Positions 24,339 through 48,565 of a DNA stretch of 64,000 bases are shown here, in pieces (the first letter of the stretch is position 1; every line of letters starts with the position of its first letter). A model generated the notes under the pieces. The model saw only the letters and a program-made list of their open reading frames with translations, made no database searches and was not told the origin of the DNA. The position numbers and the translations under genes were made by a program. Location of the stretch: assembly GCF_000011005.1 (NCBI RefSeq), contig NC_013665.1, positions 2,395,501 through 2,459,500 of the forward strand, read 5' to 3'. This stretch comes from Methanocella paludicola SANAE. GTDB lineage: Archaea > Halobacteriota > Methanocellia > Methanocellales > Methanocellaceae.

Positions 24339-25781
24339 ATGGCATCCGACAACATGAAGAAACTCAAGGAAATCATAACGAAAAACAAGATCAAGTACGT
24401 TGATTACAAGTTCATCGATGTCCCCGGCACCTGGCAGCACAAGACCCATCCCATCAGCGAGCTGGACGAGGACATATTCAAGTATGGCACCGGCTTCGAC
24501 GGCTCGAGCATCCGCGGCTTCCAGGGCATCGAGGAAAGCGACATGCTCCTCATACCCGACGCGGACACGGCGTTCCTGGACCCCTTCATCCGGGAGCCGA
24601 CGCTTTCGCTTACCTGCGACGTTTGCGACCCCGACGGCATCAAGCCGTACCACCGGGACCCGAGGTATATCGCGAAGAAGGCCGAGAAGTACATGGCCAC
24701 CACCGGCATCGCCGACGCGGCGTACTTCGGCCCCGAGCTGGAATTCTTTATCTTCGACGACGTCCAGTTCGACGTCCTCACACCTTATAAGGGCATGAGC
24801 TACTCGATCAACTCCGACGAGGGCATCTGGAACTCCAACCACAACTCCACCCCCAACCTGGGCCACCGGCCGAGGTTCAAGGAGGGCTACTTCCCGGTCG
24901 CCCCGACCGACACCCAGACCGACATCCGGAACGAGATGGTCAGCACCATGATGGACATCGGCATGAAGGTCGAGCTGCACCACCACGAGGTGGCCACGGC
25001 CGGCCAGGCCGAGATCGGCATCCGGTTCAATACCCTCACGAAGATCGCGGACCAGACCCTGATGTACAAGTACGTCGTCAAGAACATCGCCCAGAAGAAT
25101 GGCAAGACGGCCACCTTCATGCCGAAGCCCCTGTTCGGCGACAACGGGAGCGGCATGCACACCCACCAGAGCCTGTGGAAGGGCGGCAAGCCCCTGTTCT
25201 TCGACAAGGACGGCTATGGCATGCTCTCGAAGACCGCGTTGTACTACATCGGCGGCCTGCTGACGCACGCCCACTCGCTGCTCGGCTTCTGCAGCCCCAG
25301 CACCAACTCGTACAAGAGGCTCGTGCCCGGCTACGAGGCGCCCGTGAACCTGGTCTTCTCGAGCAGGAACAGGAGCGCCGCGGTACGCATTCCCATGTAC
25401 TCGGACAACCCGAAGACCAAGCGCATCGAGTTCCGACCTCCCGACGCCACCTGCAACCCGTACCTGGCCTTCGCCGCCATGCTCATGGCCGGCCTCGACG
25501 GCATCCAGAAGAAGATCGACCCGACCAAGGCAGGGTTCGGCCCCATCAACAAGAACATTTATCACCTGCCCGAGGCCGAGAAGGCGAAGATCAAGTCGGT
25601 TCCCGGCTCGCTGGACGAGGCGCTCACCGCGCTGGAGAACGACCACGAGTACCTCACGAAGGGCGGCGTGTTCACCGAGGACTTAATCGGCGCCTGGGTG
25701 GACTACAAGCGTAATACGGAGATCGACCCTGTGAAGATCAGGACTCACCCGTACGAGCTGTACCTTTACTACGATGCATGA
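24339..25781 (+). CDS. glnA: Glutamine synthetase type I (longer form)
   Basis: Makes glutamine from glutamate, ammonia and ATP. The 480-residue class I enzyme shows FDGSSIRGFQGIEESDM, the metal-binding GPELEFF near residue 130, HHHEVATAGQAEIGIRF near 213, and the ATP-site-adjacent [16 protein letters not shown]. Near residue 410, NKNIYHLPEAEK resembles the region of the adenylylated tyrosine in GSI-beta enzymes; whether it is modified here cannot be told. An NrpR-like operator precedes it. It differs from the shorter GS at 44.8 kb by an insertion near residues 150-175 and other changes. Confidence 0.95.
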   Translation: MASDNMKKLKEIITKNKIKYVDYKFIDVPGTWQHKTHPISELDEDIFKYGTGFDGSSIRGFQGIEESDMLLIPDADTAFLDPFIREPTLSLTCDVCDPDGIKPYHRDPRYIAKKAEKYMATTGIADAAYFGPELEFFIFDDVQFDVLTPYKGMSYSINSDEGIWNSNHNSTPNLGHRPRFKEGYFPVAPTDTQTDIRNEMVSTMMDIGMKVELHHHEVATAGQAEIGIRFNTLTKIADQTLMYKYVVKNIAQKNGKTATFMPKPLFGDNGSGMHTHQSLWKGGKPLFFDKDGYGMLSKTALYYIGGLLTHAHSLLGFCSPSTNSYKRLVPGYEAPVNLVFSSRNRSAAVRIPMYSDNPKTKRIEFRPPDATCNPYLAFAAMLMAGLDGIQKKIDPTKAGFGPINKNIYHLPEAEKAKIKSVPGSLDEALTALENDHEYLTKGGVFTEDLIGAWVDYKRNTEIDPVKIRTHPYELYLYYDA

Positions 25782-25860: not shown

Positions 25861-25922
25861 GGCGATGAAGCTCGCCGTGCTCTTATGCAGAACCGCCGCA
25901 CGGACTGCGACTAATGGCTTCT
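25861..25922 (+). promoter_or_regulatory. Structured leader element, copy A (upstream of Nudix 1)
   Basis: Hairpin GGCGA-TGAAGC-TCGCC, then a middle part with the invariant AACCGCCGC, then CTAATGGCTTCT. The loop GAAGC can pair with the distal GCTTC. A TATA-like TGTATATG lies about 30 bases upstream (25831-25838), so the element should start at or next to the transcript 5' end. The Nudix ATG is 45 bases downstream, and its GGAAG ribosome site could compete with the loop for pairing to CTTC. Confidence 0.7.
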
Positions 25923-25967
25923 GTTCGTTAAAAATGCCTTTTGGCGATAATGACGGAAGTGAAATAG

Positions 25968-26441
25968 ATGGCTGAAAAATTTATCGTAGGCTGTTACGGC
26001 CTCGTGTTCGACGGCGGGAATCTGCTGATGGTCAAACAGCGCTCCGGCCACTGGGCCGGCAAATGGATCCTGCCCGGCGGCAAACTGGAGATCGGAGAAA
26101 GCTTTGAACAGTGTATCGAGCGCGAAGTTTTCGAGGAGACGTTTTGCAGGGTAAAGGCGGTGAGACAGTTGAGCGCCGTAGCGTCCTATAGCCCGGACTC
26201 CGCCTTCGAAAAGCAGGTCGTCCTCGTCTTCTACCTGTGCAAGCTCCTCGAAGGCGAGCCGAAGAAAGGCGACGGCGTCGACGCCGCAAGCTGGGTGGAC
26301 GTGAGCCGGTTCGAGCACATGGCCGGAGCGGACATGGTCCCTGCCCGGATATTCAACGTCGTCTCGGACCTGTGCGCTAAAAAGTCTTTCCCGGCGGTGA
26401 CCTTCGACTTTTGCGAGGCGGCATCGATGGCGGGCAGGTGA
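25968..26441 (+). CDS. Nudix hydrolase (active-site intact)
   Basis: A 157-residue protein of the Nudix superfamily, which cleaves nucleoside diphosphates linked to other moieties. The Nudix box at about residues 38-60 reads GKLEIGE...REVFEET, keeping the Arg-Glu and Glu-Glu metal-binding positions, although the usual Gly near the end is Phe. The substrate is unknown. It has a closely related but degenerate paralogue at 38.7 kb, and both are preceded by the same leader element. The next gene starts four bases after its stop. Confidence 0.88.
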   Translation: MAEKFIVGCYGLVFDGGNLLMVKQRSGHWAGKWILPGGKLEIGESFEQCIEREVFEETFCRVKAVRQLSAVASYSPDSAFEKQVVLVFYLCKLLEGEPKKGDGVDAASWVDVSRFEHMAGADMVPARIFNVVSDLCAKKSFPAVTFDFCEAASMAGR

Positions 26442-26445
26442 GCGC

Positions 26446-27294
26446 ATGATGACGGCTCACGTGTTACCGCTCATGAGTTATATTGATGCGCGATCGCTGG
26501 CCGATTACCTCCTTAAGCGGCGAAACCCGGATGGCGGATTTTGCCATTATAGCCTGGACGAGTCGAACCTGAACGATACGGCGTATGCGATCCTCATCCT
26601 GGACATGCTCGGCCGGCTTCCGCAGGACGACAGGACCGTCGAGTATGTTCGCTCCTTCCAGCGTGCCGACGGCAGCTATAACAGCCCCTATTCGGCATGG
26701 TGCGCGCTAAAGGCCCTTAAGATCATGGACTCGGAGCCGAAGTACGGCCTCGAGGAGTATGTCCGGCAGCTCCTGCGAAAGCACACCATACCTGAGGAAG
26801 TATACATCGAAAGGCTGAGCATATTCGAATCGTCGTTCTACCTGGCGGGCATTCTGGAGCTGATAGGGCGCCCCGGGCTGTGCGACGATATCGCCGCAGC
26901 CGTTCTCGAGTATCGCATGCCGGATGGCAGCTTCGGCCGGAGCGATCCGGGCATTATATCCACGTACCATGCGCTCTCCATACTTCGGTCCGCCGGAAAG
27001 CCGATGGGCGAGTTTGGGGATTCGGCGGACTTCATCGCCGCCCGTGCCGTGGGCAGCGGCGGATTCACGAAAAAGCCCCTGGCCGGCCTCGCCTTCATGG
27101 ATGAGACGTACTATGCCCTTATGACGCTCGAAATGCTCGGCAAAAGGCCGGATCATGTCAGGGAGACGATCGGCTTCGTTGTCGATTGCCAGAACGAGAA
27201 CGGCGGCTTTCGCAGGGCGAGGGCATCGGGCATCTCCGGCTTCGATACCTCGTACTATGCGGTCCAGTCGTTGCGGACACTGATAAAATCTTAG
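26446..27294 (+). CDS. Prenyltransferase/terpene-cyclase-fold repeat protein
   Basis: A 282-residue alpha/alpha-barrel protein with repeated QF-type motifs: NPDGGFCHY, RADGSYNS, MPDGSFGRS, VGSGGFTK and NENGGFRRA. These match protein geranylgeranyl/farnesyltransferase beta subunits and squalene cyclases. It lacks the DXDD motif of cyclases, and I could not confirm a full zinc site. Archaeal proteins of this kind have no established reaction. It appears cotranscribed with the Nudix gene, which could hint at isoprenoid diphosphate chemistry, but that is speculative. Confidence 0.75.
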   Translation: MMTAHVLPLMSYIDARSLADYLLKRRNPDGGFCHYSLDESNLNDTAYAILILDMLGRLPQDDRTVEYVRSFQRADGSYNSPYSAWCALKALKIMDSEPKYGLEEYVRQLLRKHTIPEEVYIERLSIFESSFYLAGILELIGRPGLCDDIAAAVLEYRMPDGSFGRSDPGIISTYHALSILRSAGKPMGEFGDSADFIAARAVGSGGFTKKPLAGLAFMDETYYALMTLEMLGKRPDHVRETIGFVVDCQNENGGFRRARASGISGFDTSYYAVQSLRTLIKS

Positions 27295-27343
27295 AACGCG
27301 GATTATAATATTCGAATGTTAATGTTAATGGATGTGATTCATT

Positions 27344-28597
27344 TTGCCAGTACCAATTGAAAAGATCCATGCGAGAGAGATCCTCGATTCGAGGGGCAAC
27401 CCGACGGTCGAGGTCGAAGTGCATACCCCATATAATGTCGGCGTAGCATGCGTGCCATCGGGCGCGTCCACCGGTACCCACGAGGCGTTAGAGCTCAGAG
27501 ACAAGGATAAACGCTTTGGCGGCAAGGGCGTGCTGAAGGCCGTGAAGAACGTGAACAACGTGATCGCCCCCAAGGTCGTGGGAATGGACGCCGCCGCCCA
27601 GCGTAACCTGGACATGTTCATGCTGGAGCTGGACAGCACCGAGAACAAGTCGAAACTCGGCGCCAACGCCATCCTGGGCGTCTCTATGGCCGCGGCCCGG
27701 GCGGCCGCCGGCGCCCTGGAGCTGCCCTTATACCAGTACCTGGGAGGCGTTAACGCGTATAAGCTGCCCGTCCCCATGATGAACGTCATCAACGGGGGCA
27801 AGCACGCGGGCAGCGGCCTGGCGATCCAGGAGTTCCTGTTATTGCCTGTCGGCGCCGACACGTACCACGAGGCGCTGCGCATGAACGTGGAAACATACCA
27901 TACGCTCGCTAAAATCCTTAAAGACAAGTACGGCAAGTCTGCGACCAACGTGGGCGACGAGGGAGGCTATGCGCCCTCCATCGGCACGACCCGCGAGGCG
28001 CTGGACGCCATGATGGAGGCCATCGATAAGGCAGGGTACAAGGGCAAAATAAAGCTCGGGATAGACTCCGCAGCGAGCGAGTTCTTCAAGGGCGGCAAAT
28101 ACAACATCGACGGCAAAAGCCTGTCGCGTGACCAGATGGTCAAGTATTATGCGGGCATCGTGAAGGATTATCCGATCATCGTGCTCGAGGACCCGTTCGC
28201 CGAGGAGGACTGGGACGGGTTCGTCGCCATCACGAAAGAGGTCGGTAAAAAGGTGACCGTCATCGGCGACGATATTTATGTGACGAACGTGAAGCGGCTG
28301 CAGAAGGGCATCGACATGGGCGCCGCTAACTCGCTATTGTTAAAGCTGAACCAGATCGGTACCGTCTCGGAAGCTTTCGATGCTGCGACCCTCGCGTTCC
28401 GTAATAAGTATAAGGTCGCCGTGAGCCACCGGTCCGGGGAGACCTGCGACTCCATCATTGCGGACGTGGCCGTGGCTCTCAGCGCGGAGATCATTAAGAC
28501 TGGCGCGCCGGCCAGGAGCGAGCGTACCTCGAAGTACAACCAGCTCTTGAGAATTGAGGAGAATCTCGGTAAGGCTGCAGTGTACACTAAGCTATAG
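27344..28597 (+). CDS. eno: Enolase
   Basis: Dehydrates 2-phosphoglycerate to phosphoenolpyruvate. It has 417 residues with the family motifs [55 protein letters not shown], and [10 protein letters not shown] followed by SHRSGETCD; the catalytic Lys of KLNQIG is present. The start is TTG 27344, which gives the normal N-terminus. Its last seven codons lie within a 39-bp sequence repeated downstream of the P-type ATPase. Confidence 0.96.
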
Positions 28598-28615
28598 GCG
28601 TCAATTCGGGCCGCC
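28577..28615. repeat. 39-bp direct repeat, left copy (3' end of eno)
   Basis: A perfect 39-bp sequence starting GCAGTGTACAC and ending GGGCCGCC. It covers the end of eno including its TAG stop and 18 bases beyond. The identical sequence in the same orientation lies at 31156-31194. The 2,540 bp between the repeats hold the P-type ATPase gene. Confidence 0.95.
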
Positions 28616-28688
28616 TTGGGTTACATGGGAAAGGTTATCAGACAAGATAAATGGAGAATACTGGAAGGCTTTAAACATTAATCCAAAA

Positions 28689-31031
28689 ATGCAGAAGCAA
28701 GATATTTCCCTGGAAGCAAATGTTGACGTGGAAGACCTCTCTGAAGCGGAAGCCCGGGCGCGTCTGGATAAAAATGGTTACAATGAAATACTCGAAGAGC
28801 CTTCCGGCCCTTTTCGAGGCATCCTCAAGCGCCTTTGGGGGCCCATCCCATGGACGCTCGAAGCGGCGCTGATACTGGAGGTCGCTCTAGGCAAAATAGT
28901 CGAAGCATCGGTCATAGCAGTCTTATTGCTCTTCAGCGCCATAGTGGGTGAAACCCAGGAACTTCGAGCCCATACCGCTGTGGACTTCCTCCGCCACCGT
29001 CTGCAGGTAAGCGCGCGGGTGCGCCGGGATGGGCGCTGGCGATTTCTTCCCGCCCGAGAGCTTGTTTCAGGCGATCTGGTCCACATTAAATTAGGCGACA
29101 TCGTGCCTGCGGACTGCATAATCCGCAATGGGGCGGTGGAAGTCGACCAGTCTGTGCTCACAGGAGAGTCAGTCAGTGTATCACGTTCAAATGATGAGAC
29201 GATCTATTCGGGATCAACTGTCCTTCGTGGCGAAGCCATTGCAACAGTAACGGCAACAGGGTCCGGCACTTCGTACGGGCGGACGGCCGAACTGGTAAGG
29301 ACTGCCGAATCACCCGGTCACCTTCAAAAGCTTATGTTCACTGTAGTGCGCTATCTGGCAACCGTGGACCTGGTTCTCGCAGTGGTGCTCGTGGGAGTTG
29401 CCCTATGGAACAATTCCGACTTGCTCCCGCTCCTACCATTCCTGGTGGTGCTTGTGATCGCCACAGTGCCGGTCTCGATGCCGGCAAGCTTTACTGTCGC
29501 TAACGCGCTCGAAGCCCGCACGCTTGCGAAAGAAGGCGTTCTCATTACCGGATTGACGGCGATCCAGGAAGCAGCGACTATGGAGGTTCTCTGCGTGGAC
29601 AAGACCGGCACGCTGACGCAGAACCGGCCGGAGATAGCCGCTATCATCCCCTTCCCGGGCGAACTTGAGGAAGAAGTCCTGGCCTATGCCGCTGCATGCT
29701 GCGACGAGGCGACCCAGAATCCTCTGGATATAGCGATCCTTCACGAATTAGAGCATCGATCGATACAGCCACTGAGCCGACATAGGATCGTTCCTTTCGA
29801 CCCGGCGACCAAGCGTTCGGAGTCATACGTTAACCGCGATGGCCAAACCTTCCAGGTGATGCTTGGTTCTCCTCCGATCGTGGAACAGTTCGCCGACCCC
29901 CGGCCTGAATTCAAGGATCAAGTAGAAGAGCTGGCCGCCAGCGGGGCTCGCGTACTGGCGGTTGCGGCAGGCCCTGAAGGACATCTTTCACTTCGTGGGC
30001 TGGTGGCGCTGGCTGACCTGCCCAGAGAAGACGCTGCCGCCCTCGTAAAGGCTATCCAGGGCCTCGGGATCCGGGTACTTATGGTCACAGGCGACACTTC
30101 CGCTACAGCGCGGGCGGTGAGCCATAAAGTCAATCTCGGCGATCGCATCGGGGATTTGAATGTTGCCCTCAATAATCCGCTTGAGTACGACGGGTTCGCC
30201 AATGTTTATCCCGAAGATAAGTTCCGCATCGTGCAGGCTCTCCAAAAGCTTCACCTGACCACAGGCATGACAGGGGATGGCATAAACGACGCGCCGGCGC
30301 TCAAACAGGCGGAAGTCGGGATCGCTGTCAGTTCTGCCTCGGACGTCGCCAAGGCCTCCGCAAAAGTAGTCATGACCAGCCCCGGGCTCCAGGACATCGT
30401 CAAGATCATCTACGGTGGCCGCTATGTTTACCGCCGGATGCTAACATGGACCATCACGAAGATCGCGAGGACTGTCGAGCTTGCTGTTCTGCTGACCCTC
30501 GGGTATATTGCCACGGGCTTCTTTGTAACACCATTAAGCCTGATTATCATAATAATCGTTTTGAATGATATTGTGACGATCACCCTCGGAACTGATCGTG
30601 CATGGGCCTCTCCAGTACCTGAGCGATGGGATGTCAGAGATATTGCCAAAATTGCGGGCATACTTGCAGCCGGCTGGCTGGTCCTGGCGTTCTTCATCCT
30701 GTGGATAGGCCTGAACGTACTGAAACTCCCGGTCCCCCAGATCCAAACGCTCATGTTTGTCTACCTCATCTTTTCGGCACAAACAACGATTTACATAACC
30801 CGCGTTCGGGATCACTTGTGGTCGTTCCTGCCGAGCCGATACGTCATCGCGACCACGGTCGGCAATGTAGTCGTAGCATCGGCTCTCGCTATCCTGGGGA
30901 TACTGATGGCTGCAGTTCCCGTTATTTATTTGATCGGTGTTCTCGGAGCCGTTCTTGCAGCAACATTCCTGCTCGATGAGGTTAAAATTTGGTTTTACCA
31001 AAGTACGGGTATTCTAGGGAAGGTTAAATAA
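28689..31031 (+). CDS. P-type ATPase, plasma-membrane H+-ATPase-like (P3A)
   Basis: A 780-residue cation-pumping ATPase. Key motifs are the A-domain LTGES near residue 160, the phosphorylation site CVDKTGTLTQN near 305, the hinge TGDGINDAPALKQAE near 530, and VPVSMPASFTVANALEA in M4, which fits the proton-pump (P3A) branch. It has an N-terminal regulatory segment and about ten helices. ATG 28689 is chosen because upstream residues overlap the enolase 3' end and are not family-like. The gene is bracketed by a 39-bp direct repeat, and its codon choice looks less G/C-biased than its neighbours, both suggesting acquisition. Confidence 0.88.
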   Translation: MQKQDISLEANVDVEDLSEAEARARLDKNGYNEILEEPSGPFRGILKRLWGPIPWTLEAALILEVALGKIVEASVIAVLLLFSAIVGETQELRAHTAVDFLRHRLQVSARVRRDGRWRFLPARELVSGDLVHIKLGDIVPADCIIRNGAVEVDQSVLTGESVSVSRSNDETIYSGSTVLRGEAIATVTATGSGTSYGRTAELVRTAESPGHLQKLMFTVVRYLATVDLVLAVVLVGVALWNNSDLLPLLPFLVVLVIATVPVSMPASFTVANALEARTLAKEGVLITGLTAIQEAATMEVLCVDKTGTLTQNRPEIAAIIPFPGELEEEVLAYAAACCDEATQNPLDIAILHELEHRSIQPLSRHRIVPFDPATKRSESYVNRDGQTFQVMLGSPPIVEQFADPRPEFKDQVEELAASGARVLAVAAGPEGHLSLRGLVALADLPREDAAALVKAIQGLGIRVLMVTGDTSATARAVSHKVNLGDRIGDLNVALNNPLEYDGFANVYPEDKFRIVQALQKLHLTTGMTGDGINDAPALKQAEVGIAVSSASDVAKASAKVVMTSPGLQDIVKIIYGGRYVYRRMLTWTITKIARTVELAVLLTLGYIATGFFVTPLSLIIIIIVLNDIVTITLGTDRAWASPVPERWDVRDIAKIAGILAAGWLVLAFFILWIGLNVLKLPVPQIQTLMFVYLIFSAQTTIYITRVRDHLWSFLPSRYVIATTVGNVVVASALAILGILMAAVPVIYLIGVLGAVLAATFLLDEVKIWFYQSTGILGKVK

Positions 31032-31090
31032 AAACCACTAAACAGTTTTGTTAAGAGAATCCAGGGAGCTTTGTCGTAGAGCGCCGCCTG

Positions 31091-31129
31091 GCATTACCGC
31101 ACCGCGTCGTCACTGACTTGATCGGGGGC
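31091..31129 (+). pseudogene. Short remnant resembling the FAD oxidoreductase genes
   Basis: Thirteen codons read ALPHRVVTDLIGG, matching the ALPHRVVTDLIEG segment of the FAD oxidoreductase at 48.6-50 kb. Most nucleotide differences fall at third positions. There is no surrounding reading frame of that family. It lies between the P-type ATPase stop and the right 39-bp repeat. It may be a decayed fragment carried with the inserted module, although chance cannot be fully excluded for so short a match. Confidence 0.4.
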
Positions 31130-31155
31130 CGGGCCGCCCCCTATGATTAAGTATG

Positions 31156-31194
31156 GCAGTGTACACTAAGCTATAGGCGTCAATTCGGGCCGCC
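31156..31194. repeat. 39-bp direct repeat, right copy (3' end of dynamin-like gene)
   Basis: Identical to 28577-28615. On the minus strand it supplies the last nine codons and the stop of the dynamin-like gene; on the plus strand it is an orphan copy of the enolase 3' end. If the insert and one repeat are removed, enolase and the GTPase become convergent genes with overlapping 3' ends. Confidence 0.95.
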
Positions 31195-32962
31195 GGCAGT
31201 AAAGCTCGACGGCCTCCAGCCTTTTTTTATGCTCCTCCAGGGCGGCCAGCATCCGGTCGATCTCTGCGGCACGTTTCTGCGCTTCACTCGCGGACATGGA
31301 CTTTTCGGCCCGGGCTCTTTCGAGCGCCTGCTTTACTGAGGACACCAGAGTATCCGCCATGGTCTCGTACGAGGCCTTCATGCTCTTCGATGACTTCAGG
31401 AGGCTTTCCAGGAACGCATAGCGTATCTTGCCCGAGTTCATATCCAGCGAGCGCTCCACGCGCTCCCGCATAGCGTTCTTAACCTGCCCGCGGAACAGCG
31501 AAGACGGCATCATCAGGTTGAGCGTCGTGAGCGCCGTATCGAGCAGCATGCCCTCGTCCATGAAAGTATCGATGCCGTAGAATAGGGGCGTATGAAGGTC
31601 CGGCGCACCATCGAATGAGTAGTGCCGTATCTCGACATCGAATATATCGGACGAGGCCTTTTCGAACCGGCGGATGGACTCTTCCCACCTCTCGGAGTGC
31701 GACTTCGCCTTCTCAGCATAGAGCCCGGATATTTTCTCCTCCTCACTGGCACGCCAGCTATCACAGGCCCCGGAAATGACCTTAAAGAGCTGGTCCTTGA
31801 TCGCGTTCAGGAACTCGCGGTTGCCGGCTTTCGGATAAGTATCGATGAACGACTCCATCTGCCGGATGGCAACGGGAGTCATCTCGCTTTTGAATTTGCC
31901 GCTATCCACGTCCAGCGTCTTGATCATAGAGTCCACGTCCCACTCGATGAGGTGCACATTGGCTTCCTTGTCCCTCAGGAATCGCTCCAGCTCCACATTG
32001 AACAAAGTCGCTTTCTCTTCCAGCGCCTGCACTGATAGCGCCCGTGTCTTCTTCTCGATGGCCAAGGACAGGCGCCTTGCCTCCACGAGCCCCGATGCCC
32101 TGTCCAGGATGGAGCGCAGGAAGACGCCGCACTTATCGGTGGTCAAAAAGGTGCCGAGCGCTCTATCAAAATCTACGTAACCGCTCCGTTGCAAAAGCTC
32201 CCTATCGCCTTTTGTTTTCCCTTCGAGCGCCTGCTTTGCGGATAAGGGAAATAATTTAGGCTCGGCCCCCATCTTTTCCCCGATCACGGCCCGGTTAAAG
32301 GCTATAGACTCCTTCACCTCTTCGGCGTCGGCCCTGTCGACCTTGTTAAGGATGAAAAAGAACTTTTTCACGTGCTTCCCGACGTCCTCAAGGAACCGCA
32401 GCTCAACGTCGCTGACCGGCGGGTCGATGGAGAGCATGAACACGGCTGCGTCTACTTTTGACAGGAAGCTGTAGGTCACCTCAGTGTTGTGGAGGAAAGT
32501 GGAGCCGATGCCGGGCGTATCGATGATCATTACGCCCTCCTTCAGATAGTCGGAGGGGTACTCTATCTCCACGTGGCCCACGCGCTTTACATTCCGGGGA
32601 TTTCCCCGCTCGGTCACGTAATCGCCCAGTAACTCAGGCCCGATAACGTCGGAGCGCCCGTCCTGGTATATTACGGTCGTCCTCGGTACGGGGCCGAACC
32701 GGATCACCGTGATGATGGACGTGAGAGGGACCACCGCCGTGGGAAGCACGCTATCGCCAAGCAAAGCATTGATGAACGTCGTCTTTCCTCGCTTGAACTG
32801 GCCCAGCACGACCAGGTTGAACGTGTCGGAGTCCAGCTTGGCGATAAGCGCATCGGCCTCCCGGCGCGCCGCCTCCTCATCCGACATGAGCCCTCTTAAA
32901 GCGTTAAGCTCCTCCCGGGCCCTGTTTTTAAGCTCGCCGTAATCATTAACAGGCTGCATCAT
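31166..32962 (-). CDS. Dynamin-like GTPase
   Basis: A 598-residue bacterial-type dynamin-like protein. GTPase motifs are G1 GQFKRGKTTF near residue 54, G2 region PLTSIITVIRFG, G3 IDTPGIGS near 150, and G4 NKVDRAD near 207. The remainder is long and helical with charged coiled-coil stretches. A hydrophobic patch near residues 470-490 (LLDTALTTLNLMMPSSLF) could be a membrane-inserting paddle. Members of this superfamily remodel or tether membranes. The gene is preceded by leader copy B, and its 3' end is formed by the 39-bp repeat. Confidence 0.88.
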   Translation of the reverse strand: MMQPVNDYGELKNRAREELNALRGLMSDEEAARREADALIAKLDSDTFNLVVLGQFKRGKTTFINALLGDSVLPTAVVPLTSIITVIRFGPVPRTTVIYQDGRSDVIGPELLGDYVTERGNPRNVKRVGHVEIEYPSDYLKEGVMIIDTPGIGSTFLHNTEVTYSFLSKVDAAVFMLSIDPPVSDVELRFLEDVGKHVKKFFFILNKVDRADAEEVKESIAFNRAVIGEKMGAEPKLFPLSAKQALEGKTKGDRELLQRSGYVDFDRALGTFLTTDKCGVFLRSILDRASGLVEARRLSLAIEKKTRALSVQALEEKATLFNVELERFLRDKEANVHLIEWDVDSMIKTLDVDSGKFKSEMTPVAIRQMESFIDTYPKAGNREFLNAIKDQLFKVISGACDSWRASEEEKISGLYAEKAKSHSERWEESIRRFEKASSDIFDVEIRHYSFDGAPDLHTPLFYGIDTFMDEGMLLDTALTTLNLMMPSSLFRGQVKNAMRERVERSLDMNSGKIRYAFLESLLKSSKSMKASYETMADTLVSSVKQALERARAEKSMSASEAQKRAAEIDRMLAALEEHKKRLEAVELYCRRPELTPIA

Positions 32963-32991
32963 ATTTTCACCGCAAATGAACGTTTTAAAAT

Positions 32992-33046
32992 AGAAGCTAT
33001 CAGCCTTGCGGCGGTTTTGCCATGAGCCACGGCGAGCTTCATCGCC
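32992..33046 (-). promoter_or_regulatory. Structured leader element, copy B (upstream of dynamin-like GTPase)
   Basis: Read on the minus strand: hairpin GGCGA-TGAAGC-TCGCC, middle part with AACCGCCGC, and 3' segment CTGATAGCTTCT. The loop GAAGC is complementary to GCTTC. This is the most diverged copy in the middle (GTGGCTCATGGC replaces GTGCTCTTATGC). A TATA-like CTATATT (33071-33077) lies about 25 bases upstream. The GTPase ATG, with a GGTGA ribosome site, is about 30 bases downstream. Confidence 0.65.
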
Positions 33047-33085
33047 GCTGTATGTTATGCTTTTTAAAAGAATATAGGTTACGTT

Positions 33086-33502
33086 TTACTTTGAGGCTAT
33101 CCGCTTCAAGCGTCGCACCTGCTCATCGAGACGATCGCAGAGCTCTCCCATCTTTTCCGCCTGCTCATCCGACTCGATGTCGCCGTGGGTCTTTCTAAGC
33201 TTTTCGGGGCGCATGTCGTCGACCAGGTCCTCCATGAATTGAGAAAGGACATAGATACGCCACTTCACGTCCGTCTCTTCCTGCGGCAGGCCCGAGTCGC
33301 CCCAGTAGTCTTCGATTGCACGCTCCATGCCAGCCATGATATTGTTGATCTCCTTCACCTCTTCCGCTGTGGGCCGGCCCTTCAGGCTGGAATGGAACTG
33401 GTCGCCCGATGCCATAAGCGACCTTATCTCCCGGATATAGCCCAGTATCGTCGTGGCCGCGGCACTTACCGACCTGTTATGGCGCCCGCACATCCCTATC
33501 AC
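33086..33502 (-). CDS. Small helical protein of unknown function
   Basis: A 138-residue, mostly charged and helical protein with a C-terminal coiled-coil-like stretch (DEQAEKMGELCDRLDEQVRRLKRI). GTG 33502 overlaps the MFS stop codon as GTGA; ATG 33493 is an alternative three codons in. No family is recognised. Coupling to the transporter gene suggests a shared transcript, possibly as an accessory protein. Confidence 0.6.
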   Translation of the reverse strand: MIGMCGRHNRSVSAAATTILGYIREIRSLMASGDQFHSSLKGRPTAEEVKEINNIMAGMERAIEDYWGDSGLPQEETDVKWRIYVLSQFMEDLVDDMRPEKLRKTHGDIESDEQAEKMGELCDRLDEQVRRLKRIASK

Positions 33503-34710
33503 CCTTGAGTATTTGCTCCGACATCATATTTTTTATTGGTAAGGATTAGCGCGATAACTCCTGCCGCTCCCGCGAGCGCCGCGAACGCGAAGCCGTAGGC
33601 GAACCCGAATGCGCTCCACAGGACGCCTACGACGAAGCTGGAGATGAAATCGCCCACACCATTCATTGTGGCCATCGCGCCGAAGCCCAGGGCGCGGCGT
33701 GGTTCCTCGACCATCTGCCCGCAGACGGCGCCTTCGAGGGTGTCCTCGGCCGCGATATAGGCGCCCGCAATGGCGAATAATAATCCGTATACGATAACAT
33801 TGGGCGGCGCCAGGATGAACCCGACGAACATCAGCACGGCCAGCGCGTACCCGAAGGCTAGAACTTCCTTCCGTCCAAACCGGTCGCCCAGCGCCCCGAA
33901 CGGATAGCATGCGGCAGCGTAGACGACGTTCCGCACTCCGTACAGCAGCACCCCCATCGCGGTCGCCTGCACGAAGCCAAGAGTCGGCGTTAACGTTGTC
34001 ACGGCAAAGAGGATAAGCATCGTGTGGGAGAAGTCCGAGACGCCGAATAGCAGCACTGCGGATAAGAACCCTTTAAACCGCGGCGTAAATCCCTTTAAGG
34101 ACGTTACGATGTTCACGTGCCCTTTGGCAGGGGCCGGATTTTTCTCTTTCACGGCCACCATGAATACGATAACGGCCAGCATGCCCGGTATGACCGCGAG
34201 CCAGAATACGTCCCTCATCCCGATGTAGGAGACCAGCACGAACGCAAGCGCCGGACCGGCTATGGCCCCGAGGGTGTCTCCCGTCCGGTGGACCCCGAAC
34301 GCTTTGCCGAGGTCGTTTTCCTCTACCGATTTCGCAAGGATGGCATCCCTCGGGGGGCCGCGGACGCCCCGCCCGATCCAGCCGAACACCCGGCCTAAGA
34401 GCACGGCCGGCCAGGACGATGCCAGCGCGACGATAGCCGGGAAGATGCCCGTCGCGATGTACCCTATTATTGAGAGCTCCTTGCGCTTCCCGAGCTTGTC
34501 CGAGTAGTAGCCCGATAATAGCTTGGCAAAGCTTGAAAGCCCGTCGCTCAGCCCTTCGATGAGGCCCAGCGCGTACGCCGGAGCGCCCAGCGACGTAAGG
34601 AATGACGGCAGCAGCACGGTCACAGTCTCATGCCCAAAGTCCGAGAGGAAGCTCGTCAGCGAGACGCCCCAGACGGTGGAATTAAGCCAGCCCTTATTGT
34701 TATTTTCCAT
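33499..34710 (-). CDS. Major facilitator superfamily transporter
   Basis: A 403-residue transporter with about 12 hydrophobic segments. The MFS loop motif appears as SGYYSDKLGKRKE near residue 65 and again as GALGDRFGRKEV in the second half, and GRVFGWIGRGVRGPPRD is reminiscent of the drug/multidrug exporter branch. The substrate is unknown. It is the first gene of a two-gene unit behind leader copy C. Confidence 0.88.
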   Translation of the reverse strand: MENNNKGWLNSTVWGVSLTSFLSDFGHETVTVLLPSFLTSLGAPAYALGLIEGLSDGLSSFAKLLSGYYSDKLGKRKELSIIGYIATGIFPAIVALASSWPAVLLGRVFGWIGRGVRGPPRDAILAKSVEENDLGKAFGVHRTGDTLGAIAGPALAFVLVSYIGMRDVFWLAVIPGMLAVIVFMVAVKEKNPAPAKGHVNIVTSLKGFTPRFKGFLSAVLLFGVSDFSHTMLILFAVTTLTPTLGFVQATAMGVLLYGVRNVVYAAACYPFGALGDRFGRKEVLAFGYALAVLMFVGFILAPPNVIVYGLLFAIAGAYIAAEDTLEGAVCGQMVEEPRRALGFGAMATMNGVGDFISSFVVGVLWSAFGFAYGFAFAALAGAAGVIALILTNKKYDVGANTQG

Positions 34711-34756
34711 TTAACTCACCATTAGCAACCCGTTCAAAGAATGGCTTTGAACTATC

Positions 34757-34818
34757 AGAAGCCATTAGTCGCCCGCTGCGCGGCGGTTCTGCATAAGAGC
34801 ACGGTGAGCTTCATCACC
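34757..34818 (-). promoter_or_regulatory. Structured leader element, copy C (upstream of MFS transporter)
   Basis: Read on the minus strand: hairpin GGTGA-TGAAGC-TCACC, where the C-G pair of copies A and B is replaced by a compatible T-A pair. The invariant AACCGCCGC and CTAATGGCTTCT follow. TATAAATA (34841-34848) is about 23 bases upstream. Downstream, TTCAAAG-CCATT-CTTTGAA forms a separate hairpin before the GGTGAG ribosome site and ATG. Confidence 0.7.
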
Positions 34819-34875
34819 AGAATAGCATAGTGGCCGGTTTTATTTATATGTTTGGTCATAGAATAGTTCACTATT

Positions 34876-35655
34876 TCAATGTATAATAAGCGAACACATC
34901 TCGTATCCACCGATTGCGCATATGATGACTACCAGGGCCAGGCAAAGGTAATACAGGATCCTTTCGAAAGTCTCAGCTGAAACGTTATCTACAGCATCAC
35001 CGACAGCTTTTCCGGTCCACTTGATCGCCCTCGATAATGCGCTGGCAGGGGGTTCTTCATCCAGGCTGATCTCGCAGTAATGGCGGCCAGTATAGAAGGA
35101 TAGCGCCGTAACGGCTAATATGAGGGCAATGGAGGAGAACATGGTGACCGTCCAATAAGCCCCGGTGAGGCCAAATGCCAGCACGGCTATGATATCGAGC
35201 GCAATGATCAGCGCGGCGGCCCTGGACGGCCGGATGTCCCAGAAAATATCGATGGCCCTTTTATGCTTTCCTGCGATGGCTATAGCATCGTCCACCAGGC
35301 CAAATTGTAGATCGTATTTAAAGTTGATGTTGACCGAAGCGCACGATGGCGATAGTATCATGAAAAGGATGGGGTAAAGCGACTCTCCGTGATAGGATAT
35401 GAACATCGCTTCGACTCGCTCGGACGTGTCGATATTTTTTATGGCCGGGTAATTATCCTGGTTAAAATAATAGACCCGCGCGTTCGTATCCAGCTCCACC
35501 GTAAATCTGCCGATGGTCTCATGGAATAATTCACAGAGCAGGATTAAGTCATCGATGTACATTCGTGACATCGGTATGCGGATATTCCGGAAGGACGGCG
35601 ATTTGACCGATAAGCTCTCTATCAATGAAGATATTGCCTGCGGACTGGCCCTCAT
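34876..35655 (-). CDS. Two-helix membrane protein of unknown function (paralogue 1)
   Basis: A 259-residue protein. The N-terminal 155 residues look soluble, followed by two adjacent hydrophobic helices (AAALIIALDIIAVLAFGLTGAYW, then TVMFSSIALILAVTALSF), a short charged region, and a C-terminal hydrophobic segment. Its N-terminal domain aligns with the gene at 39.2 kb: YIDDLILLCELF with YYSDIIRLFGLF, FISYHGESLYP with FLAYYGESPDP, and the following PxxASVNINxKYxxxxG with PVNAAICINDKYGIPYG. No known domain is recognised. Preceded by leader copy D. Confidence 0.65.
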   Translation of the reverse strand: MRASPQAISSLIESLSVKSPSFRNIRIPMSRMYIDDLILLCELFHETIGRFTVELDTNARVYYFNQDNYPAIKNIDTSERVEAMFISYHGESLYPILFMILSPSCASVNINFKYDLQFGLVDDAIAIAGKHKRAIDIFWDIRPSRAAALIIALDIIAVLAFGLTGAYWTVTMFSSIALILAVTALSFYTGRHYCEISLDEEPPASALSRAIKWTGKAVGDAVDNVSAETFERILYYLCLALVVIICAIGGYEMCSLIIH

Positions 35656-35682
35656 GCGCTTAACCTCTGGATCACATTAGCC

Positions 35683-35742
35683 AGAGGCCATTAGTCGCGA
35701 CGGGCGGCGGTTCTGCACAAAAGCACGGTGAGCCTCATCACC
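35683..35742 (-). promoter_or_regulatory. Structured leader element, copy D (upstream of two-helix protein 1)
   Basis: Read on the minus strand: hairpin GGTGA-TGAGGC-TCACC, AACCGCCGC, and CTAATGGCCTCT. Here the loop is GAGGC and the 3' segment is GCCTC, a compensatory change relative to GAAGC/GCTTC in the other four copies. The 3' segment also forms CCTCTGG-N10-CCAGAGG with bases overlapping the AGAGG ribosome site, eight bases before the ATG. TATAAAG (35764-35770) lies about 22 bases upstream. Confidence 0.75.
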
Positions 35743-35864
35743 ATTGTCGTTAACACTCTCCGCCTTTATACGTCTTGCGCCACCGTATTATTTTCTGAAT
35801 TTAAAATGGCGGGATGCGATAGATGTCAAATATAAAAATAAATCGCTAAATGTAATGTCTCATC

Positions 35865-37580
35865 ATGAGAAGCCAGGATTTAAGAAAACAAAGCCCCGAG
35901 ATCGACCCGCTAAAGCTCTCCATGGACTTCACGGTCGAAGACCTGGGGAAACCGCAGATACTCGTCGACGACGTCTGGGGCGACTCCATGCCCGGCAGCT
36001 ATCACCTGATGCAATTATCGCAGATGGTATCCAATGGCGTATACTCCAGCGGCGGAAAGCCAGGCCTGTTCCACGTTACCGACGTGTGCGACGGCATCAT
36101 CCAGGGCACGGAGGGCATGTACTATTCCCTGCTATCGAGGGAAATGATCTGCGACATGATCGAGGTCCACTGGAGGACGCAGCCGATGGACGGCATGGTG
36201 CTGGTGTCCAGCTGCGATAAGGCGGTCCCGGGCCAGCTCATGGCCGCCGCCAGGCTAAACGATGCCCCGGCGATCGTTGCGCTCGGGGGCACCCAGGCGC
36301 CGGGCCCCGGGATGTTCACGCTTGAACAGGTCGGTACGATATATGCACAACTCAGGCGGGGAGAGCTGGCAAAGGATGTTTTCACGTTCTTCCAGCAGAA
36401 TGCGTGCCCCACCGAGGGGAGCTGCTCCTTCATGGGAACGGCGAACACCATGCAATCGATGTCGGAAGCCCTGGGCATGTCATTGCCAGGGTCGGCTGTG
36501 ACGCCCGCATACCAGAAGGACGTCCGGGCCCTCGCGGAAATATCGGGGAAGCGCATCATGGGCATGCTGGAAGAGGGCGCCATGACCAGGGATATACTGA
36601 CGAAGGACGCGTTCGAGAACGCGATCATGGTCCACGCGGCTATAGCGGGGTCGCTGAACGCCATCATGCACCTCGCCGCCATAGCCCATGAAACGGGAAT
36701 AACGCTGCATCCAAAGCTATGGGATGAGCTTAACCGGGAAATCCCATACCTGCTCAACGTCCGGCCCAGCGGGAAGTACCCGGCGGTATTCTTCTGGTAC
36801 GCGGGCGGAGTATACGGCATCATCTCGGAAATCAGGGAGTTCCTGCACCTCGATGCCATGACAGTGACCGGCAAGACCGTCGGCGAGAACCTGAAGGACA
36901 TGGAGAATATGGACTACTTCACAAAAGTACGGCGATATCTTAAAAACTTTAAAGTAACTGCAGAGGACGTCATGGCACCGATCAACCGCCCTATCGGAAA
37001 AGGAGCCCTCGCTATTCTAAGCGGTAATCTTGCGCCCGGCCACGCGGCGATTAAATATTCCGCATTGCCCAGGGAGATGTTCCACCACGTCGGGCCGGCG
37101 GTGGTATTCGAGCAGGAAAAGGCGGCCTTCGACGCGGTAATAAACGGCGAAATCGAGCCGGGCTCCATGATCGTCCTGCGCTATGCCGGTCCTAAGGGGT
37201 TGGGGTTACCGGAGATGTTTTACCTAACGGAAGCGCTCGCATCGAAAAGGGAGCTGGACACGACGACGGCGCTCATTACGGACGGACGGTTCTCCGGTGC
37301 AAGCCGCGGGCCGTGCGTGGGATACCTGTGCCCGGAGGCCATGGACGGAGGGCCCATAGCAGTCGTGGAAGACGGCGACCTTATCGAGCTGGACGTACCG
37401 AACAGGGGCCTGAACATAGTGGGCGTACAATGTAAAAAAGAAGAGCCGGAAACCATCAACAAAATTATCGCCGATAGGCTTTCACAATGGAAGCCCCCGG
37501 AGAATAAGTACACCGGGGTGTTAAGATTATTTACTAAATTAGCGACACCTGCCATGGAAGGGGCGTATATGAAATATTAG
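35865..37580 (+). CDS. IlvD/Edd family dehydratase (dihydroxy-acid or sugar-acid dehydratase)
   Basis: A 571-residue Fe-S dehydratase. Family motifs are TDVCDGIIQGTEGMYYSLLSRE, SSCDKAVPGQLMAAAR near residue 110, CPTEGSCSFMGTANTMQ near 181, and the C-terminal DGRFSGASRGP near 470. Cysteines at the expected cluster positions are present. The form DVCDGI, where typical IlvD has VSDGI, and CDKAVPGQ, where typical IlvD has CDKxxPG, suggest a branch distinct from the biosynthetic enzyme, so a sugar-acid substrate is possible. No other branched-chain amino acid gene is nearby. Confidence 0.8.
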   Translation: MRSQDLRKQSPEIDPLKLSMDFTVEDLGKPQILVDDVWGDSMPGSYHLMQLSQMVSNGVYSSGGKPGLFHVTDVCDGIIQGTEGMYYSLLSREMICDMIEVHWRTQPMDGMVLVSSCDKAVPGQLMAAARLNDAPAIVALGGTQAPGPGMFTLEQVGTIYAQLRRGELAKDVFTFFQQNACPTEGSCSFMGTANTMQSMSEALGMSLPGSAVTPAYQKDVRALAEISGKRIMGMLEEGAMTRDILTKDAFENAIMVHAAIAGSLNAIMHLAAIAHETGITLHPKLWDELNREIPYLLNVRPSGKYPAVFFWYAGGVYGIISEIREFLHLDAMTVTGKTVGENLKDMENMDYFTKVRRYLKNFKVTAEDVMAPINRPIGKGALAILSGNLAPGHAAIKYSALPREMFHHVGPAVVFEQEKAAFDAVINGEIEPGSMIVLRYAGPKGLGLPEMFYLTEALASKRELDTTTALITDGRFSGASRGPCVGYLCPEAMDGGPIAVVEDGDLIELDVPNRGLNIVGVQCKKEEPETINKIIADRLSQWKPPENKYTGVLRLFTKLATPAMEGAYMKY

Positions 37581-37627
37581 CTGCCCATTATTTTGTTATA
37601 GCGAAGGTTGAAAAAGATATGACAAGT

Positions 37628-38446
37628 TTAGGAGTATATGTCCGGCGATGGTTCCCGGTATGAGACAATATCTTTTACCGGCGTTTTTTCATCCCTTGCT
37701 ACTTTCTCCAGTAAGGCTTGCTTTACGAGGTCCGTGCCATCCGCCCGGAATGAAGGCTTGATCCCGTTATCGTCCTTCGTATACTGGTAGCCCCGGATGA
37801 TCGCGATGGGGGTCCCCTCGTCGGCCTCGCCCATGAGCATGTTGGCGCAGGCGGCGACCTCGTCGGCGATGGCCTGGATGGTGATCTTGAGCTCGTGGCC
37901 GAACAGGTCCTTGTCGCCCCGCTTATCGTGGAGGGCGGAGATGCCGGCGCAGCCCACCGTGACGCCGATCTGGCCTTCGCGGAAGGAGCGGCCGTTCGTG
38001 TCGGTGATGATGACGGCCACGCGCTTACCGGTAAGCTCTAAGATGCGGTCACGGATCCTGCGGGCCGATGCGTCCGGGTTCTCGGGAAGCGATAAGATAT
38101 GGCCGGATTCGGTGTTCGACCGGTCGGTACCGGCGTTTATGCATACGTTACCCCAGACGGTCTGGACAAGGAGCGGTCGCTTCATGAGGACCTTCGTACT
38201 GTTCGTGAGCACGTGCTGGATGAATCGGGGATCCTCGTTGTTCAGCCCGGCCAGTTCCACTGCCCTTTGCGTGGGCACGATACCGTCTAAAGAATACCGG
38301 CGGCCCTCCGCTTTGGATACGATGGTGTGCGCGAAAACAACTATATCGTCGTCCTCTATCTTCGCCAGGCTTGCCACGATGGCCCCGAGGTCATCGCCCT
38401 TCTGTATCATGGGAACGCCGTCCACGGTGAATGCTGTGATTTTCAA
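37628..38446 (-). CDS. cofE: Coenzyme F420-0:L-glutamate ligase
   Basis: Adds glutamate residues to F420-0 with GTP. Signatures are VPMIQKGDDLGAIVA at the N-terminus, FAHTIVSKAEGR, TDTNGRSFREGQIGVTVGCAGI, and DLFGHELKITIQAIADEVA. TTG 38446 is chosen because a GGAGG ribosome site (38455-38459) lies eight bases upstream and gives LKITAFTVDGVPM, as in relatives. A longer opening to 38572 would run into the leader element of the divergent Nudix gene. The resulting length is 272 residues. Confidence 0.92.
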   Translation of the reverse strand: MKITAFTVDGVPMIQKGDDLGAIVASLAKIEDDDIVVFAHTIVSKAEGRRYSLDGIVPTQRAVELAGLNNEDPRFIQHVLTNSTKVLMKRPLLVQTVWGNVCINAGTDRSNTESGHILSLPENPDASARRIRDRILELTGKRVAVIITDTNGRSFREGQIGVTVGCAGISALHDKRGDKDLFGHELKITIQAIADEVAACANMLMGEADEGTPIAIIRGYQYTKDDNGIKPSFRADGTDLVKQALLEKVARDEKTPVKDIVSYREPSPDIYS

Positions 38447-38557
38447 CGATAAGGCCTCCGAATTAATCCTATAAGGCCCCGAAAAGGCATAAACATTGTG
38501 CGTAATCGGCACTAAAGGATAAAACGTATAAATGATGATGGACAATACTCCCATACT

Positions 38558-38620
38558 GGTGATGAAGCTCACCGTGCTCTTATGCAGAACCGCCGCAAGG
38601 CAATGCGACTAATAGCTTCT
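38558..38620 (+). promoter_or_regulatory. Structured leader element, copy E (upstream of Nudix 2)
   Basis: Hairpin GGTGA-TGAAGC-TCACC, AACCGCCGC, and CTAATAGCTTCT, with GAAGC complementary to GCTTC. TATAAAT (38527-38533) lies about 25 bases upstream. Through the first 50 bases it closely follows copies A and C. The Nudix 2 ATG is 75 bases downstream. Confidence 0.7.
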
Positions 38621-38694
38621 CCAGACATTGAGGCGCATTGTCGATGGCGGACATTCGGCCCATATGGCAATGCGCGATGTTGCGAGTTGGTCCT

Positions 38695-39183
38695 ATGGCA
38701 GACAGGTTTGTCGTATATTGCTGTGGCCTGGTCTTTGACGACGGTAGGCTATTGATCGTAAAGCATAAAAAGTCGCAGTGGGGTAACCGGTGGGCGCTGC
38801 CGGGAGGCCGGCTGCGGCCGGGGGAAAGGTTCCAGCACTGTGTCGAAACGATGGTCGAAAGGGAGACATCATGCTCGGTGAAAGCCGTCAGGCAGATAAC
38901 GACGTCGATGTCCTATCACGACAGCTCGATACTGGACAGGCACGCAGTACTCATTTTCTACCTCTGTAAATACATGTATGGCGAGCCCCGTGCCGGAGAC
39001 GGGATCGAAGCGGCGATATGGGCGGACGAGGAGCTTTTTACGGGCCTCGCCAGGGACCTGGACATGCCCTACCAGTTCATCGAAGCGGTCTCGGCGCTTT
39101 GCATTAATGCCACGTCATTCCGGGAATTATCGTTCGACTTCAAAAAGCCCGAATCGATCTTCAGGGGCATGATCCTTGATTGA
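38695..39183 (+). CDS. Nudix-fold protein with degenerate active site
   Basis: A 162-residue paralogue of the Nudix hydrolase at 26 kb, aligned from MADRFVVYCCGLVFDDGRLLIVK onward. Its Nudix box keeps the first part (GRLRPGE), but the catalytic RExxEE has become TMVERE, losing the Arg-Glu pair and one metal-binding Glu. It is therefore probably inactive or altered, perhaps a sensor. ATG 38695 matches the paralogue start; in-frame starts at 38638 and 38644 exist. It is followed 19 bases later by a two-helix membrane protein. Confidence 0.8.
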   Translation: MADRFVVYCCGLVFDDGRLLIVKHKKSQWGNRWALPGGRLRPGERFQHCVETMVERETSCSVKAVRQITTSMSYHDSSILDRHAVLIFYLCKYMYGEPRAGDGIEAAIWADEELFTGLARDLDMPYQFIEAVSALCINATSFRELSFDFKKPESIFRGMILD

Positions 39184-39202: not shown

Positions 39203-39910
39203 ATGGATAATAAGAAAAAAATCATAGACAGTCCATGGACCAAAGCCCGGATGAAAGGTCCGCTCTCGAAATACGTGAATGAACTGGAAAAAGATTCCGT
39301 GGATAGCATTATTGAGCTGCCCGTGTCGAAGGTCTATTACTCAGACATAATCAGGCTGTTCGGACTATTCGACCTTCACTTTAAGGCTTTTAAGGCTGAG
39401 ATCGATACCTATAAAGACGCTTACTTATTCGACGAGACTAATTATACACGGATCGATGGCGTCGATAAAAGTGAAGACGTGGATGCCCTGTTCCTCGCCT
39501 ATTACGGCGAATCGCCCGACCCCCGGGTATTTTTAATGCTAACCCCCGTCAATGCGGCCATTTGTATCAATGATAAGTATGGCATACCCTACGGCTTTTA
39601 TGAAGACGCATACCGGCTATTATCGAAAAATAGGAGACTTCTCGACCGGTTTTTCCGTTTGAATATCGATTATGTTATTATCATCGCCGTCATCGCGATC
39701 ATCGTGGCAGCATTGCTGGGCGCCGGGCAGATACTATTGGTTTCTATAACGGTCGTATCTTCCCTGATCATCGCAACATTGTATGCGGTCGCTTACTATG
39801 CGAAAAGAAGATACTACCGGGTATATTTATGCGAAGCACCGGTCAAGAAAGGCCCAATTGGTTCGGCCGTGGCAAAAATGCTGGAGGCGTTACATATTGT
39901 ATTCAATTAA
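39203..39910 (+). CDS. Two-helix membrane protein of unknown function (paralogue 2)
   Basis: A 235-residue paralogue of the gene at 34.9-35.7 kb: a soluble N-terminal domain of about 150 residues, two adjacent hydrophobic helices (IDYVIIIAVIAIIVAALLGAG, then ILLVSITVVSSLIIATLYAV), and a short basic tail. The shared motif is a YYGES-type segment followed by a strand with N/DKY. It sits in a unit with the degenerate Nudix gene, a few bases after an AGAGAGAATG start context. The function is unknown. AT content is higher than in core genes. Confidence 0.65.
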   Translation: MDNKKKIIDSPWTKARMKGPLSKYVNELEKDSVDSIIELPVSKVYYSDIIRLFGLFDLHFKAFKAEIDTYKDAYLFDETNYTRIDGVDKSEDVDALFLAYYGESPDPRVFLMLTPVNAAICINDKYGIPYGFYEDAYRLLSKNRRLLDRFFRLNIDYVIIIAVIAIIVAALLGAGQILLVSITVVSSLIIATLYAVAYYAKRRYYRVYLCEAPVKKGPIGSAVAKMLEALHIVFN

Positions 39911-39973: not shown

Positions 39974-41257
39974 ATGAGTTTGAAGTCGAGGAAGATTCTG
40001 GGCACGCCCTGTGCGAACGGGGCGAAGCTGCTGTTTCTGGGAGCGGGAGAGCTTGGTAAGGAGACGATGATCGAGGCCCAGCGAATGGGCATCGAGGTCG
40101 TGGCGGTGGACAGGTACGCCAACTCGCCGGGCATGCAGGTGGCACACCGTTCATATCCGATCAACATGAAGAGCGAGCGGGCGCTGATGGCCATCGTGGC
40201 GAGGGAGAGGCCGGACGCCATCATCCCCGAGATCGAGGCCATCAACATCGACACGCTCTTCAAACTGGAGAAGGAGGGCTACTTCGTGGCGCCGTGCGCC
40301 AAGGCGGTGTGGACCGCCATGCACCGGGAGCGCCTCAGGGAGGCCATCGCCTCGACCGGGGCCCGTACCTCGAAGTACGAGTACGCCACCGACCTGGAGA
40401 GCTTCAGGAAGGCCTGCGACAAGATCGGGTTCCCCTGTGTTTCGAAGCCCATCCAGTCGTCCAGCGGCAAAGGCTCATACTTATTGAAGAGCAAGAAGGA
40501 CGTCGAGAAGGCCTTCAAGGAGGCCGAGAAGGCCCGGGGCTCGGCGGCCAAGATAATCGTCGAGGAGTTCATCGACTTCGACGTGGAGATCACCGAACTG
40601 TCGGTAAAGTACGTGAACGAGAAGGGCAGGGACGAGAGCAAGTTCGTCCGGCCGCTCGGCCACTACCAGATCGAGGGCGACTACCACTCCTCGTGGCACC
40701 CCTGGATCGAGGACGGCGACGAGAAGATGGTTAAAAAGATCGAGAAGCAAATATACGATTACTCGCAGCGCATCATGGACAACCTGGGCGGTTATGGGTT
40801 GTATGCTCACGAGATGTTCATCGACCTGAAGAATGGCAAGGTGTACGCCAACGAGACGGCGTGCAGGCCGCACGACACGGGCCTGGTGACCATGGCCTCG
40901 ATGCCGCTGGGATATTCGCAGTTCGCGCTGCACGCGAAGGCTGTTCTGGGCATTCCCATCCAGTGGCATGACAGGGTCATCGAGCCCCGGAGCAGCGCGG
41001 CGTCCCACGTCATCATCTCCCACACCGAGGGCTGGTACCCGCAGTATAACGTAACGGGCGCCTACGACGACGACACGAACGTCCTCATCTTCGGCAAGCC
41101 CGAAACGTATGCGGAACGCCGGATGGGCGTGGTGCTCTCGTGCGGGAAGACCGTAGAGCAGGCCCGCCGCAAGGCCCAGGCCAGCGCCCACAAAGTGAAG
41201 ATCGACGCCGGCCAAGGATGGAAAGGACAAGAGATAACCGAAAAGCACTATCATTAA
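39974..41257 (+). CDS. purT: Formate-dependent phosphoribosylglycinamide formyltransferase (PurT)
   Basis: ATP-grasp enzyme making formyl-GAR from GAR, ATP and formate. It has 427 residues. Signatures are LLFLGAGELGKETMIEAQRMG near the N-terminus, IIPEIEAINIDTL, the ATP-grasp loop SSSGKGSYL, and the C-terminal ETACRPHDTGLVTM. Together with PurP it indicates formate-based one-carbon input to purines, as in many archaea. Confidence 0.95.
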   Translation: MSLKSRKILGTPCANGAKLLFLGAGELGKETMIEAQRMGIEVVAVDRYANSPGMQVAHRSYPINMKSERALMAIVARERPDAIIPEIEAINIDTLFKLEKEGYFVAPCAKAVWTAMHRERLREAIASTGARTSKYEYATDLESFRKACDKIGFPCVSKPIQSSSGKGSYLLKSKKDVEKAFKEAEKARGSAAKIIVEEFIDFDVEITELSVKYVNEKGRDESKFVRPLGHYQIEGDYHSSWHPWIEDGDEKMVKKIEKQIYDYSQRIMDNLGGYGLYAHEMFIDLKNGKVYANETACRPHDTGLVTMASMPLGYSQFALHAKAVLGIPIQWHDRVIEPRSSAASHVIISHTEGWYPQYNVTGAYDDDTNVLIFGKPETYAERRMGVVLSCGKTVEQARRKAQASAHKVKIDAGQGWKGQEITEKHYH

Positions 41258-48510: not shown

Positions 48511-48565
48511 GAGAAATTATAAATATTGCATCCCGCCTACTCCCCTATGAGTAAGAGTGATAAGG

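Follow-up and report, generated by a model that had tools for sequence, protein, structure and literature searches.

All five structured leader elements in the window (the whole 64 kb stretch of DNA analyzed here) are almost certainly fluoride (crcB) riboswitch aptamers of the Rfam class RF01734, and the genes that these riboswitches precede in this methane-producing archaeon, as in its relatives, resemble a fluoride-defence island of a kind seldom described. The interest lies in this island and its candidate fluoride-resistance proteins more than in the RNA, which is ordinary. Scanning the window with 4227 Rfam families, we obtained RF01734 matches for copy A at 25861–25922 (+; 37.5 bits), copy B at 32992–33046 (-; 45.1 bits), copy C at 34757–34818 (-; 34.2 bits), copy D at 35683–35742 (-; 29.8 bits) and copy E at 38558–38620 (+; 30.8 bits). 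All five matches are full length (model positions 1–64), with E-values for the 64 kb window from 2.8e-9 to 2.9e-4. Copies A, B and C exceed the curated cut-off of 34 bits; D and E fall below it, yet match over the full length at E-values below 3e-4. Rfam matches to ceN114 and sX6 within the window were far under their own cut-offs and were rejected.

Re-reading the sequence confirmed the coordinates and strands that a first-pass annotation had given for the five copies, and the 9-mer that it described as invariant, AACCGCCGC, is the same in five of five. Its suggestion that these were copies of a candidate new RNA did not survive. All five match RF01734, and the crcB motif was already described from both bacteria and archaea in 2010 (PMC2864571); the RNA itself belongs to a riboswitch class that was already known in this domain.

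The elements share with the RF01734 class the P1 stem, the pseudoknot, the second stem, the AACCGCC segment and the linchpin A-U, together with a 5′-leader position and fluoride-type genes. P1 changes in step between copies, as had been noticed at the outset (GGCGA/TCGCC in A and B; GGTGA/TCACC in C, D and E), and the pairing reported between a loop and a distal segment (GAAGC with GCTTC in four copies, GAGGC with GCCTC in D) is the known fluoride-riboswitch pseudoknot. A covariation test, proposed with the original description, was run on a sequence-based alignment of 37 archaeal copies in which we assigned the pairs from the known fold. Counting base pairs of P1, the pseudoknot and the second stem, 96.7% of cells were paired, and the covariation score was 0.397, compared with 0.195 ± 0.014 for shuffled alignments and a maximum of 0.150 when partners were slid. 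In the pseudoknot, each of the six pairs is formed in 37 of 37 copies, with four of the six changed on both sides, and the second stem (AACCGCC...GGC) is paired in 87.4% of cells. Both linchpin positions, A and U, are invariant across the 37 copies; in the Bacillus cereus riboswitch the corresponding A40-U48 pair is locked by fluoride and required (PMC8752731).

We observed that each element points the same way as the gene behind it (five of five) and that, as previously reported, a TATA-like box lies 22–31 bases upstream: the best TTTAWAWA-like octamer begins 30, 22, 30, 30 and 31 nt before P1 in copies A to E. Among 118 archaeal copies, good octamer matches concentrate mainly 30–35 nt before P1. 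Given the usual spacing of archaeal promoters, a TATA-like box in this position implies transcription starting at P1 or a few bases from it. Transcripts should thus begin at or near P1, a start predicted from the promoter position and in line with the earlier placement of the element at the 5′ start of the transcript. The RF01734 matches, the real pseudoknot and the upstream TATA-like box bear out the description of the element as a structured cis-regulatory leader.

We propose that each of the five aptamers is the 5′ end of a transcription unit and that these five units would together constitute a fluoride-response island. Extrapolating from the known class, we infer that the five RNAs bind fluoride and exert fluoride-ON gene control. 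Rising intracellular fluoride, with Mg2+, would lock the A-U linchpin together with P1 and the pseudoknot; in this state the aptamer would turn on the downstream genes – enolase, Nudix and MutS-like enzymes, a P-type ATPase, an MFS transporter, a dynamin-like GTPase and a toroid protein.

For the local mechanism we prefer translational control, to which we give close to an even chance. Without fluoride, the 3′ pseudoknot strand would pair with the leader around the Shine-Dalgarno sequence; with fluoride, that strand would shift into the pseudoknot and free the ribosome site. In A, C and D, though not in B or E, the forming pseudoknot is predicted to release the Shine-Dalgarno sequence, and candidate pairings identified by eye are GCUUC/GAAGU in A, GCUCACCGU/AUGGUGAGU in C and CCUCUGG/CCAGAGG in D. 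Across the five window copies, Shine-Dalgarno effects were no better than in shuffled leaders, against which only the pseudoknot-strand pairing of C stood out (1% of shuffles). A swap control on 116 copies, counted regardless of their relatedness, gave an effect that was significant though small (mean z -0.30, p 0.0016). With Shine-Dalgarno effects not exceeding the shuffle level and the pairing weakly above that of swapped leaders, we therefore put the translational switch forward as tentative. Transcriptional control by the same aptamer, in which fluoride binding would prevent premature termination in the leader, is a serious competitor with a somewhat below-even chance of being correct. Two accounts of archetypal bacterial fluoride riboswitches describe them as working on transcription (PMC11077080, PMC8752731), and the sequestration evidence that does not beat shuffles also speaks for this mode. 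Against it, no hairpin followed by a U-run is evident by eye in the leaders, with the proviso that bacterial rules capture archaeal termination poorly.

Three features set the window elements apart from the RF01734 class: an insert of 11 nt separating P1 from the second stem, which the first description of the elements lacked; a C-A mismatch within that stem in four of them (A, C, D and E); and the presence of five copies within 13 kb. The insert and the mismatch are apparently why D and E score below the cut-off. Two sub-cut-off copies, the insert after P1 and the mismatch in four copies could also be taken to indicate a riboswitch class of its own, or a fluoride-type fold whose ligand specificity has changed. 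We consider this very improbable, as the conserved P1, pseudoknot and linchpin positions are all retained, the insert site is variable and the C-A mismatch recurrent among related archaeal copies, and the gene context is of the fluoride type.

Searching the whole genome with RF01734 (2,957,635 bases, a single contig) returned five copies in total and no sixth. Five random positions would fall within 12.7 kb of 2.96 Mb with a chance of ~2e-9. A short palindromic mobile element of MITE or REP type, inserted close to promoters, which the presence of five copies, three of them very similar, might suggest and which the first-pass annotation rightly argued against, is refuted as the sole explanation and retains next to no probability, since the genome-wide search found no randomly oriented copies – only these five, all co-oriented with a gene and behind a TATA-like box – and homologous copies precede fluoride genes throughout the phylum. 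Duplication of riboswitch and gene together is possible. A candidate sixth element at 26999–27039 (-), scoring 20.5 bits with a model that we built, is partial and lies inside the toroid coding sequence; we read it as a chance match.

With the five elements read as fluoride riboswitches, and transcription-unit extents inferred from spacing and strand, the island is organized as follows. Unit A begins with a Nudix hydrolase (25968–26441, +; PF00293) and continues with an alpha-alpha toroid (prenyltransferase-like) protein (26446–27294, +; PF00432), an enolase (27344–28597, +; TIGR01060) and a P-type ATPase, probably for H+ (28554–31031, +, with the true start further in), whose match to the proton-efflux family TIGR01647 is barely over the cut-off (618.6 versus 615.5 bits). 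A dynamin-like GTPase (31166–32962, -; PF00350) lies behind copy B. Copy C precedes an MFS transporter (33499–34710, -; PF07690), after which a 138-amino acid ORF with no family match (33086–33502, -) perhaps belongs to the same unit. Behind copy D is a membrane protein with no family match (34876–35655, -). Unit E starts with a second Nudix protein (38638–39183, +; PF00293; start at 38644 or 38695), 45% identical to that of unit A, followed by a membrane protein (39203–39910, +) that is a paralogue of the one behind copy D (31% identity). It possibly extends to a PurT-like ATP-grasp enzyme (39974–41257, +; PF02222 and PF21244) and two MutS-like ATPases (41275–42831 and 42800–44305, both +; PF00488).

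Pfam and pairwise comparison thus agree with the genes listed in the first-pass annotation (two Nudix proteins, a dynamin-like GTPase, an MFS transporter and two related membrane proteins), and five copies in 13 kb, each ahead of a gene, support its view of a local regulon. Missing from that list were the enolase, P-type ATPase, toroid and MutS-like genes of the riboswitch units. The leaders have the context of a fluoride response, with enolase in unit A, MutS-like genes in unit E and a TATA box upstream: enolase, a classic target of fluoride, is commonly associated with the riboswitch (PMC11139923), and mutS was among the first genes tied to the crcB motif (PMC2864571).

Fluoride riboswitches are present in 80 of 394 genomes of the phylum, and some are clustered, with eight in ~12 kb (G290), seven in ~13 kb (G373), four (G125) and three (G041). 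We assigned the first recognizable gene behind 120 copies with flanking sequence; the counts are approximate, being based on crude ORF calling and on BLAST-cluster classes named by Pfam on few members or by resemblance. A toroid protein follows the riboswitch as often as Fluc does (26 of 120 each), and then come dynamin-like proteins (17), Na+/H+ antiporters (9), HycD-like proteins (5), enolase (4), MFS (3), MutS-like proteins (3) and others in smaller numbers; 20 copies, including A, D and E of the window, have no assigned first gene. Of 47 strong toroid matches outside the window, 31 have a riboswitch on their own strand no more than 2 kb upstream. By profile comparison, the toroid protein matches terpene cyclases and the beta subunits of prenyltransferases, and such sequence matches name the fold, not the function. 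In one genome (G111 C3, 43998–45148) a toroid gene adjoins Fluc and no riboswitch match is found beside them; the toroid is therefore tied to fluoride independently of the riboswitch. At another locus (L048), tandem riboswitch matches at 8086–8147 and 8136–8197 (+), the first ending where the second begins, are possibly a double aptamer.

A single scan of 84,980 genomes identified 77 loci encoding relatives of the window MFS transporter. Requiring an identity of 42% or more in the best segment leaves 36 loci; for 22 of these, the stretch retrieved contains a fluoride riboswitch, though not in every case upstream, as detected by a model that we built on archaeal copies and that included three of these genomes. 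The riboswitch directly precedes the MFS gene at four loci (L127, L128, L130 and L139); elsewhere the order is riboswitch-enolase-MFS (L124), riboswitch-antiporter-MFS (L125), riboswitch-DUF190-Fluc-MFS (L153) or riboswitch-antiporter-Usp-dynamin-MFS (L144), and in Holophagaceae it is riboswitch-CLC-MFS (L145 and L151, with CLC assigned by Pfam for L151). This MFS clade belongs to fluoride operons of archaea and bacteria. We considered the transporter as a simple substitute for Fluc or CLC and found no such rule, as it follows CLC in the Holophagaceae riboswitch operon and co-occurs with Fluc elsewhere. Because the MFS protein often lies beside a known exporter, its place in these operons does not fix its substrate. 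The clade matched no solved structure.

Neither Fluc/CrcB (PF02537) nor CLC (PF00654) was found in the 2.96-Mb single-contig genome by searches that were positive in control genomes. Of four genomes examined from the class, two (the window genome and G002) have the riboswitch and lack Fluc; the other two lack the riboswitch and have a Fluc pair. More broadly, 35 of 63 riboswitch-positive archaeal genomes lack Fluc and 15 of these 35 also lack CLC, in a survey that includes some draft genomes and lumps CLC-F with other CLCs. Bacterial fluoride-resistance operons combine Fluc or CLC-F with enolase, pyrophosphatase and a Na+/H+ antiporter (reviewed in PMC11139923). The island shares with them riboswitch-led transporters and fluoride-sensitive enzymes, but differs in belonging to a genome without Fluc or CLC and in having MFS, P-type ATPase, dynamin-like and toroid proteins. 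In the open-access papers searched we did not find these four named beside fluoride riboswitches, MFS co-mentions being set aside.

A new exporter or resistance protein in the island is plausible. A more specific and tentative proposal, rather unlikely to hold as a whole, is that the MFS protein (33499–34710), alone or with the P-type ATPase, could be a new archaeal fluoride exporter family operating without Fluc or CLC, and that the toroid protein (26446–27294) could be an unrecognized fluoride-resistance protein. The candidates that the islands name for fluoride survival in genomes without Fluc and CLC are the MFS clade, Na+/H+ antiporters and the toroid and dynamin-like families, with the last two repeatedly placed under predicted fluoride control.

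Several neighbouring genes also deserve mention. A CofE (F420 ligase) gene at 37628–38572 adjoins copy E on the opposite strand, and some copies in the G290 and G373 clusters (L044 and L045; eight and seven copies) lie ahead of CofE and ABC transporter genes. An IlvD (dihydroxy-acid dehydratase) gene adjoins a fluoride riboswitch in three genomes (35865–37580, + in the window; L048 10620–12263; L045 12981–14630) and reads away from it in all three – a conserved neighbour that has no obvious riboswitch itself. A glutamine synthetase gene without a riboswitch (24339–25781, +) lies just upstream of copy A, and in the relative G373 a glutamine synthetase gene is directly behind a fluoride riboswitch (L045 11370–12698, -). 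Elsewhere in the window, adjoining ORFs at 48557–49951 and 50106–51452 (+) encode FAD-dependent-oxidoreductase-like proteins that closely resemble each other, the product of a recent tandem duplication.
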